A stretch of DNA of 64,000 bases from Deferribacterales bacterium Deferri_01 (GTDB taxonomy: Bacteria > Chrysiogenota > Deferribacteres > Deferribacterales > Geovibrionaceae), in NCBI GenBank assembly GCA_001603805.1, contig LUZY01000009.1, positions 1-64,000 of the forward strand. The letters are read 5' to 3'. Numbering within the stretch: position 1 is the stretch's first letter; every line of letters begins with the position of its first letter. Position numbers and translations under genes: made by a program. The notes beneath the pieces are model-generated. The model did no database searches. It was given only the letters and a program-made list of their open reading frames with translations, and was not told the origin of the DNA. This document shows, in pieces, positions 914-10,024 of this stretch.

Positions 914-2113
914 TTAGCTTCTGTAATCGGCGTTTATAGAGATATATTCTTTGGTAAAGTCGCATGTGTAGACAGTTTTTGAGGCTGTGCCTTCCTTGAG
1001 GTCAACAGTTATCTCAATATCAGTCTTTTTCATTATCGCTGCTGCCTTAGGTTCCAGTGCATAGTCAATAATCACTCCGTTTTCAGCGTATTTCAAGTCT
1101 TCAAAATACAAGTCAACGTTGTCCTGTCTGCATGCTATTCCGCATGCGCCAACAGTTGCGAAAATTCTTCCCCAGTTCGGATCTTCCCCGTGCAGCATTG
1201 TTTTTACCAAAGGAGAATTAGCCAGAGCGAAGGCGCATTTTTTCGCATCTTCATCAGTCGCAGCATTTACAACCTTAAAAGTGCAGAACTTTGTTGCTCC
1301 TTCTCCGTCTCTCACTATCATTTTGGCAAGCTCTACGCATATGGTTTTAACAGCTTCAAAAAATTCATCCCTGTTAGGAATCACACCGCTCATGCCGTTT
1401 GCAAAGAGAAATACAGTGTCATTGGTACTCATATCTCCGTCAACAGTTATGCTGTTAAAGCTGTCTGCCATTGCGTAGTTAAGGGCATCCTGCAATGTGT
1501 CCTGTTTGACTGCGGCGTCAGTTGTGATAAATGCCAGCATTGTTGCCATTGAGGGAGCTATCATACCCGCTCCTTTTGCTGCTCCGGCAACAACATAGGC
1601 ACCGTTAGGGGTTTCCACCAGCACGGCGTATTCCTTTTTAACAGCATCTGTGGTCATAATTGCTTCTGCAAACTCCGTAGAGTTGGATGAGTCAAGCTCA
1701 TCAATAAGTTCACCTGCCTTGGATGCCATTTTATCCACAGGAAGCTGAACCCCGATTACTCCGGTGGAGGATATAAGCACCGCTTTTTCATCCACACCAA
1801 GCTCATCAGCAAAAGCCGCTGTGATCTCATTGCATGCGGCAAGCCCTTTTTCTCCTGTGCAGGCGTTTGCGTTTCCGCTGTTTACCACTATTGCACTGAA
1901 CTTGCCTTTTTTCCCAATAAGTTCCCGCCCGTGAATAACCGGAGCAGCGCAGAACTTGTTGGATGTAAATACAGCCGCAGCATTAAAAGGAACTTCTGAA
2001 TAAAGAAGAGCCATATCCTTTTTGCCTTTACCGTTGCCCTTAACATCCGCAACAGCACTCGATGCCGAAAATCCCAAAGGTGCGCATACGCCAGCGCCTT
2101 TTATATGTTCCAT
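914..2113 (-). CDS. argJ: Bifunctional glutamate N-acetyltransferase/amino-acid acetyltransferase ArgJ
   Basis: ArgJ transfers the acetyl group from N-acetylornithine to glutamate, the recycling step of arginine biosynthesis, and in many bacteria also makes N-acetylglutamate from acetyl-CoA. At 399 residues it has the usual length. The self-cleavage site is visible as MATMLAF, with Thr191 as the expected N-terminal nucleophile of the beta chain; SSTGVIG at 115-121 matches the oxyanion-hole loop. The start has AGGAG 8 bases upstream of ATG. argC lies upstream on the same strand, separated by 352 bases that contain an inserted repeat element and a second copy of this start region. Whether it is mono- or bifunctional cannot be read from the sequence. 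Confidence 0.96.
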   Translation of the reverse strand: MEHIKGAGVCAPLGFSASSAVADVKGNGKGKKDMALLYSEVPFNAAAVFTSNKFCAAPVIHGRELIGKKGKFSAIVVNSGNANACTGEKGLAACNEITAAFADELGVDEKAVLISSTGVIGVQLPVDKMASKAGELIDELDSSNSTEFAEAIMTTDAVKKEYAVLVETPNGAYVVAGAAKGAGMIAPSMATMLAFITTDAAVKQDTLQDALNYAMADSFNSITVDGDMSTNDTVFLFANGMSGVIPNRDEFFEAVKTICVELAKMIVRDGEGATKFCTFKVVNAATDEDAKKCAFALANSPLVKTMLHGEDPNWGRIFATVGACGIACRQDNVDLYFEDLKYAENGVIIDYALEPKAAAIMKKTDIEITVDLKEGTASKTVYTCDFTKEYISINADYRS

Positions 2114-2127
2114 ATTAAATCTCCTGA
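2087..2127 (-). repeat. 41-bp direct repeat, copy 1 (true argJ start region)
   Basis: This 41-base segment covers the argJ ribosome binding site, the ATG and the first nine codons. It recurs without a mismatch exactly 180 bases upstream in the argJ direction (2267-2307). Confidence 0.97.
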
Positions 2128-2153
2128 ATATATATTTTTAATGCGCACCTTCT

Positions 2154-2243
2154 GTTTCCAAGGATGGAAACACGCCGTGCGAAGCGAAGGGCGGTTTATC
2201 CGCCCGTGAGCGTGTGGAGAGGGTTTACACGGAAGTGAAACCC
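2154..2243. repeat. Three-hairpin repeat element, copy A
   Basis: Three successive inverted repeats are present: GTTTCC/GGAAAC, then GGGCGG-TTTAT-CCGCCC enclosed by ACACGC/GCGTGT, then GGGTTTACAC-GGAA-GTGAAACCC. The linkers (ACACGCCGTGCG, AGCGAAG, GAGCGTGTGG) are nearly identical to those in the 155-bp tandem repeats near 9667-9760, but the stems differ by paired changes. This copy sits between the two 41-bp argJ start repeats. Confidence 0.85.
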
Positions 2244-2293
2244 GAACCGGAAAAACAAGAGCCGCTTACGCCAGCGCCTTTTATATGTTCCAT
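2225..2293 (-). CDS. 22-codon leader ORF created by duplication of the argJ start
   Basis: The second copy of the argJ start region supplies AGGAG, ATG and the codons for MEHIKGAGV. The frame then leaves argJ sequence and stops with TAA after 22 codons, within the third hairpin of the inserted element. It has the same translation signals as argJ itself, so ribosomes reaching this leader should initiate here. It may be only a by-product of the insertion, or it may affect argJ expression through the hairpins that separate the two start sites. No known protein function is suggested. Confidence 0.5.
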   Translation of the reverse strand: MEHIKGAGVSGSCFSGSGFTSV

Positions 2294-2307
2294 ATTAAAT
2301 CTCCTGA
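2267..2307 (-). repeat. 41-bp direct repeat, copy 2 (displaced argJ start region)
   Basis: Exact duplicate of 2087-2127, including the ribosome binding site, ATG and nine argJ codons. Together the repeats bracket the three-hairpin element. Confidence 0.97.
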
Positions 2308-9521: not shown

Positions 9522-9666
9522 GTTAATCCTCCGAATGTATGATAATTCTAAACCTTATACAATATTCAATGGTCTTGATCTAAAGAGCTTGAAATGCTAA
9601 CATAACCCATATACCTGATCAAGAGTTTTTTTGCTTGTCAGTGCTTTTTTCGTGGGAAACGTAAAT

Positions 9667-9760
9667 GTTCCCACGGATGGGAACACGCCGTGCGTAGCGA
9701 AGCCCTGCTTTGCAGGGTGCGAGCGTGTGGGTTAAAAACACAGAAAGTGTTTTTTAACCC
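9667..9760. repeat. Three-hairpin repeat element, copy B
   Basis: The hairpins are GTTCCC/GGGAAC, CCCTGC-TTT-GCAGGG inside ACACGC/GCGTGT, and GGGTTAAAAACAC with GTGTTTTTTAACCC. Compared with copy A, the stems have changed on both sides while the linkers are conserved. Confidence 0.88.
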
Positions 9761-9821
9761 TGTAATGACAAGCTCAAGAGTTTTTTTGCTTGTCAGTGCT
9801 TTTTTCGTGGGAAACGTAAAT

Positions 9822-9915
9822 GTTCCCATGGATGGGAACACGCCGTGCGTAGCGAAGCCCTGCTTTGCAGGGTGCGAGCGTGTGGTTTAAAAACACAGGA
9901 AGTGTTTTTTAACCC
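9822..9915. repeat. Three-hairpin repeat element, copy C
   Basis: This is the second tandem copy, nearly identical to copy B; differences include ATGGATGG for ACGGATGG and GGTTTAAAAACAC in the third stem. Confidence 0.88.
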
Positions 9916-9976
9916 TGTAAAGACAAGCTCAAGAGTTTTTTTGCTTGTCAGTGCTTTTTTCGTGGGAAACGTAAAT

Positions 9977-10024
9977 GTTCCCACGGATGGAAACACGCCG
10001 TGCGTAGCGAAGCCCTGCTTTGCA
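9977..10024. repeat. Three-hairpin repeat element, copy D (truncated)
   Basis: This copy runs from GTTCCC through the left arm of the second hairpin and stops after CCCTGCTTTGCA. The remainder of hairpin 2 and all of hairpin 3 are missing, and the first stem carries an uncompensated change (GGAAAC opposite GTTCCC). Confidence 0.85.

Follow-up and report, generated by a model that had tools for sequence, protein, structure and literature searches.

REP and REPIN sequences (PMC3733652, PMC3116915) are short, extragenic, hairpin-forming repeats with hundreds of copies per genome; they often lie 3′ of genes, are plausibly transcribed, and form clusters and tandem arrays. The repeat described here shares these features and is itself a short extragenic palindrome at very high copy number. 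Unlike REP/REPIN, it has three covarying hairpins and an invariant unpaired core, no Y1/RAYT transposase was found in the genus, the GTAG/CGTC tag is absent, and the target duplications are long and variable, as judged from empty orthologous sites. Among known systems it looks most like the REP-type repeats, yet lacks their enzyme and their tag. CsrB/RsmZ-type hairpins carry CAGGA(U/A/C)G or CANGGANG in their loops, several per RNA (PMC7652899), a likeness that extends to our element; unlike these products of a single small RNA gene, it is a set of hundreds of dispersed chromosomal repeats. The insertion sequences IS1549/IS1634 generate direct repeats that are long and variable in length, from 8 to 514 bp (PMC2266710), as are those at the target of our element. 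They are, however, 1.5–2 kb long, encode a DDE transposase and end in terminal inverted repeats, whereas the element is ~95 nt with no terminal inverted repeats seen. MITEs, BOX and RUP are likewise small, non-autonomous, intergenic and can be transcribed, but the element is without their terminal inverted repeats, fixed-length target duplication and identified transposase. In the part of the literature that was covered, we found no paper describing this three-hairpin family.

The window analysed is a stretch of 64,000 nucleotides from Deferribacterales bacterium Deferri_01 (contig LUZY01000009.1; genome G000). The argJ coding sequence (399 amino acids) is located at 914–2113 on the minus strand with its ATG at 2111–2113, a start that is identical in the other two sequenced species of the genus (G001 and G002) and in the outgroup genus (G003). 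An exact 41-bp repeat covers 2087–2127 and 2267–2307, with a spacing of exactly 180, and extends to 48 bp at 96% identity with two mismatches (2083–2130 and 2263–2310). Both copies are read on the minus strand. The downstream copy is the true start and contains the ribosome binding site (RBS; 2121–2125), the ATG and the first nine codons; the upstream copy, with its ATG at 2291–2293, is a decoy. Repeat comparison and folding bear out the original prediction of this doubled start with three hairpins between the copies, and the fold of 2060–2330 has a z of −3.1 against shuffles. The 22-codon leader ORF proposed to open at the upstream copy is also confirmed (2225–2293, minus strand, MEHIKGAGVSGSCFSGSGFTSV, with its stop within hairpin 3 of the element). 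The ORF is conserved across the three species, always with 22 codons, and reads MEHIKGAGVCGSCFTGSDFTSV up to the stop in both G001 and G002. The same argC–argJ gap holds a second repeat family (2321–2455, ~135 bp, with a palindromic end beginning CTAGGAAAACTTTTTGAAAAAAGCTTTTCCTA) that recurs many times in G000, G001 and G002; its copy in the G001 gap is apparently in the opposite orientation. At L024:703–1180, adjoining an element locus, three tandem units with a period of 163 contain a repeat of this type.

Alignment of 45 copies from different loci defines the element as hairpin 1, core, hairpin 2, CGCGAGCGTGT and hairpin 3. At argJ it is on the plus strand. Hairpin 1 (2153–2172) has the loop AAGGAT (motif CAAGGATG) and is followed by the invariant core CGCCGTGCGNAGCGAA(G) (2173–2188). 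Hairpin 2 (2189–2205) has a covarying 6-bp stem with a 5-nt loop, the loop being usually 4–5 nt across the aligned copies. The 3′ half of the invariant core, GTGAGCGTGT at argJ (2206–2215), leads to hairpin 3 (2221–2243), which has the loop ACACGGAAGTG (CACGGAAG motif). The 3′ tail (2244–2266) reaches the duplication; it is usually TAAGWCA before the target copy and has diverged at argJ. Stem covariation is 0.863 against 0.244 for shuffled alignments (0/500 shuffles), all 17 of the 17 stem pairs vary on both sides, and 90.8% of the cells pair as compared to 57% when shuffled. Shifting the partner columns by one to three collapses the signal. The loops and the unpaired core stay constant while the stems turn over. 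The covariation could partly stem from quasi-palindrome correction at the DNA level. No Rfam family matched the element at the gathering score, and a permissive search reached nothing but the neighbouring repeat, with weak psbA and miRNA hits at 2316–2371 below gathering.

Compared with the rest of G000, the argJ-start region gives dozens of partial matches, all on the hairpin part. The core CGCCGTGCGNAGCGAAG, with at most one mismatch, occurs 112 times in G000 and 141 and 307 times in the other two species. Outside the genus there are three copies in G007 (another genus), one in G039 and none in 35 further relatives; the reversed core pattern, used as a control, matched once across all genomes searched. 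A covariance model run against 51 genomes of the phylum gave at least 86 matches in each of the three species, and six in G007; six genomes from one other genus had one to three matches apiece, all weak. Viral contigs gave no match. The family is restricted to the genus. Within G000, copies at different loci are at most 91% alike, and a search for near-identical copies, which covered part of those in G002, found one pair at 98% at two G002 loci; whole-element copying thus does occur. In the draft G001 assembly, the ends of contigs C2, C4, C6, C9, C14 and C26 coincide with element copies, so that such repeats probably interrupt draft assemblies.

Arrays are frequent. A second locus in the window (9619–10024, plus strand), upstream of a ribosomal protein gene, has 2.6 copies of a 155-bp unit; its counterparts in G001 and G002 each have one copy and part of another. 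Arrays at other loci likewise repeat the element together with local flank, and copy number varies between species. Some end in a truncated element (9996–10024 in the window, L116 and L218). The largest cluster seen (L197:2534–3436) has eight cores, with two spacings of 91 followed by five of 142, and mixes full copies with copies that are without hairpin 1.

Of 117 element loci, 28 (and 17/44 of the single-copy loci) are bounded by exact direct repeats of 12 bp or more, as compared to 1.2% of mis-paired flanks. As element loci as a class are so far above this control, the argJ-start repeat is not a chance match. The flanking repeats span 12–63 bp. The 3′ junction is nearly fixed, at 77–94 nt past the core start in 23 of the 28 and usually after TAAGWCA; the 5′ junction is variable, with filler ranging from none to 45 nt. 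Empty orthologous sites give target duplications of 16, 26, 29, 30, 53 and 61 bp. The element duplicated 26 bp upstream of ilvC in G002 (G001 and G000 empty), 30 bp upstream of prfA (G001 empty), where it supplies a new stop codon, and 29 bp at the end of the neighbouring gene (G000 empty). A G000 gene end has 61 bp duplicated (G001 and G002 empty), the ctaD start 53 bp (G001 empty) and the murG start 16 bp (G000 empty). The names ilvC, prfA, ctaD and murG are those we presume from recognised N-termini, not from a search. The target duplication often copies a gene start or end, and the gene therefore survives the insertion. Gene starts are duplicated around the element at argJ, fliM, ctaD, murG and one permease gene of G007; the last, at L070:1440–1600, is a permease-like start (AAGGAGTAAACAATGATCAAAATACTCC) doubled around a copy of the three-hairpin element.

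A tandem duplication could instead have captured an element already beside argJ, with the second element copy lost later. In its favour, true tandem arrays are found at many loci, with flank specific to the locus inside the repeated unit, and some of these close on a truncated element. No element remnant is found past the second argJ copy, however, and the clean loci with one element between two target copies and an empty orthologue (L196, L224a, L119 and murG) need only one step. We regard capture by tandem duplication as unlikely. Single and arrayed forms would both be accounted for if the element inserts with a long, variable duplication and unequal exchange follows, but the truncated array ends would not.

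The geometry of the junctions, with a fixed 3′ end, a variable 5′ end and long variable target duplications, is also that of target-primed reverse transcription, and the sense bias after genes (below) would fit a bacterial analogue of a SINE. A PF00078 reverse transcriptase was found once in G000 and not in G001 and G002, the genomes richest in copies, with a profile that would miss more diverged reverse transcriptases; a retrotransposition-like insertion is quite improbable. Mobilisation of the IS200/IS605 type, by a Y1 transposase as in the REP/RAYT system, is suggested by a small, extragenic, hairpin-forming, REP-like repeat in hundreds of copies. The Y1 transposase (PF01797) was not found in G000, G001 or G002, the element has no invariant GTAG/CGTC tag (the core N is A, T, C or G and the tail AAG(A/T)(C/T)(A/G)), and the target duplications are long, all of which make this mechanism very unlikely. 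A search of the same three genomes for an IS1634-family transposase found none.

The original prediction proposed that the argC–argJ gap be compared across relatives. The duplication and the element are present in G001 and G002, with a spacing of 184, and thus throughout the genus; in the outgroup G003, argC leads straight to a single argJ start with neither element nor duplication. The sharing by all relatives that the original prediction named as counter-evidence is thus seen inside the genus and not beyond it. It had also offered a fresh insertion with an unusually long target duplication. The long duplication agrees with the empty orthologous sites, but the insertion is not fresh, as G001 and G002 share it. 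We therefore rejected a recent event, for which the 41 identical bases of the two argJ-start copies had been the evidence. Three species whose argJ genes are 81–88% identical in nucleotide sequence have the duplication in common, and substitutions specific to each species are found in both copies. Both G000 copies have GCT as the alanine codon and both G001 copies have GGA as the glycine codon, the outgroup sequence being GCA GGC. The copies have therefore been homogenised within each lineage, their identity says nothing about age, and a recent date is barely credible. Comparing G000 with the other two species gives 88% identity for the insert and 81.5% for argJ; for G001 against G002 the figures are 96.5% and 87.8%, so that argJ is the less conserved of the two. 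That an insert is better conserved than coding sequence, which also holds for some further element loci, could be due to conversion and not selection.

All three species share one architecture at argJ and fliM: an element in antisense to the gene, a doubled gene start, and a perfect stem of 10–12 bp that surrounds the true RBS, the ATG and the first codons. The argJ stem, 12 bp in G001 and G002, is 11 bp in the window. Its outer arm lies inside argJ at about codons 9–13 (2077–2087); the other arm (2141–2151), which is absent from the outgroup, separates the element from the true RBS. The fliM loci (L123:5155–5600, L236 and L237) have the start doubled around the element with a stem of 10–11 bp. 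One pair of the fliM stem is compensatory: two species have C-G and the third has T-A, with a synonymous change on the coding side. Stems of at least 10 bp at that position were found at 4/116 loci, all of them argJ or fliM, as compared to 1/348 for controls. An inverted target copy beside the element is thus not general, as among the 116 loci 10 bp is reached solely at these two genes. Shorter inverted repeats also bound the duplicated start at ctaD (8 bp) and in G007 (about 6 bp). These data suggest that the structures in start regions are kept or targeted. For an effect on argJ, the stem around the true RBS and ATG is a structural candidate more specific than the leader alone.

Orientation was assessed on the gene calls of an ORF caller based on codon usage, to which short genes containing an element are invisible. 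The upstream gene is on the strand of the element at 44/54 loci in G000 (p = 3e-6) and at 44/57 sampled loci in G002 (p = 5e-5), the latter being mostly top-scoring matches; a few loci are common to more than one genome. The downstream gene shows next to no strand preference. In a small contiguous stretch of G001 the upstream gene is on the same strand at 1/5 loci, and between convergent genes there is no preference, with the element nearer the sense gene at 15/32 loci. At about 30 loci no more than 10 nt separate the upstream stop codon from the start of hairpin 1.

Of the hairpin-1 regions 73% contain the motif CA(N)GGANG, as do 90% of the hairpin-3 regions; shuffled and antisense sequences have it in 1.5% of cases or fewer. 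The loops, in which CANGGANG or CAGGANG is placed as in CsrA-binding RNAs, match the CsrB repeats (CAGGA(U/A/C)G) and the CsrA SELEX consensus RUACARGGAUGU (PMC7652899). Each genome of the genus has one csrA and one fliW gene. The GGA motifs are on the same strand as the upstream gene at most loci and antisense at argJ and fliM; as the element is antisense at argJ, the GGA loops would there be read as TCC loops in the argJ mRNA. From consensus, loop placement and orientation we tentatively predict that sense copies form RNA with paired CsrA-type GGA hairpins beside the upstream stop codon and would bind CsrA. It is possible to a similar degree that the element is purely a DNA-level parasite, whose hairpins drive slippage, template switching and arm correction, with loops and position having no RNA function. 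The tandem arrays with their flank duplication, the inverted target copy adjoining argJ and fliM, and the failure to find a mobilising enzyme would fit such a parasite. The strand bias towards the upstream and not the downstream gene, and the invariance of the unpaired core and GGA loops although the stems turn over, argue against it. This alternative opposes only the RNA-function part of our reading and is compatible with the insertion history.

Family membership, sharing across the genus, absence from the outgroup, concerted substitutions and, at other loci, insertion with long duplications and empty orthologues are all demonstrated. We consider it probable that the argJ duplication arose by insertion in the genus ancestor; as there is no empty argJ site within the genus, the argJ event itself is inferred from these other loci. 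The ~95-nt three-hairpin element would have inserted at the argJ start in antisense, duplicating a target of ~45 bp that comprised the RBS, the ATG and nine codons. The duplication would have left argJ intact behind the element and turned the old start in front into the 22-codon leader. Gene conversion or unequal exchange would since have kept the two copies alike. The argJ mRNA would carry, in order, the decoy start with the leader ORF, the antisense element, and the 11–12 bp stem looping out the true RBS and ATG. That leader, element and stem modulate argJ translation is plausible, if somewhat doubtful.

The combination of a tiny, covarying repeat at high copy number, long variable target duplications and loops with the consensus of a global regulator is rare in bacteria. 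The argJ locus is also a caution that identical repeat copies need not imply a recent event. At argJ, fliM, ctaD and murG, the element can hit a translation start and spare the gene, with a leader left over. The fullest account of the family, a genus-specific mobile RNA with two putative CsrA-binding hairpins, is rather unlikely to hold in its entirety. Such an RNA would insert with long, variable duplications beside stop and start codons by a mechanism other than Y1, IS1634 or reverse transcription; it might act as a chromosome-wide CsrA sponge, with occasional leader-controlled genes (argJ and fliM). The orientation bias and the conservation of the loops make titration of CsrA by dispersed repeats directly testable.
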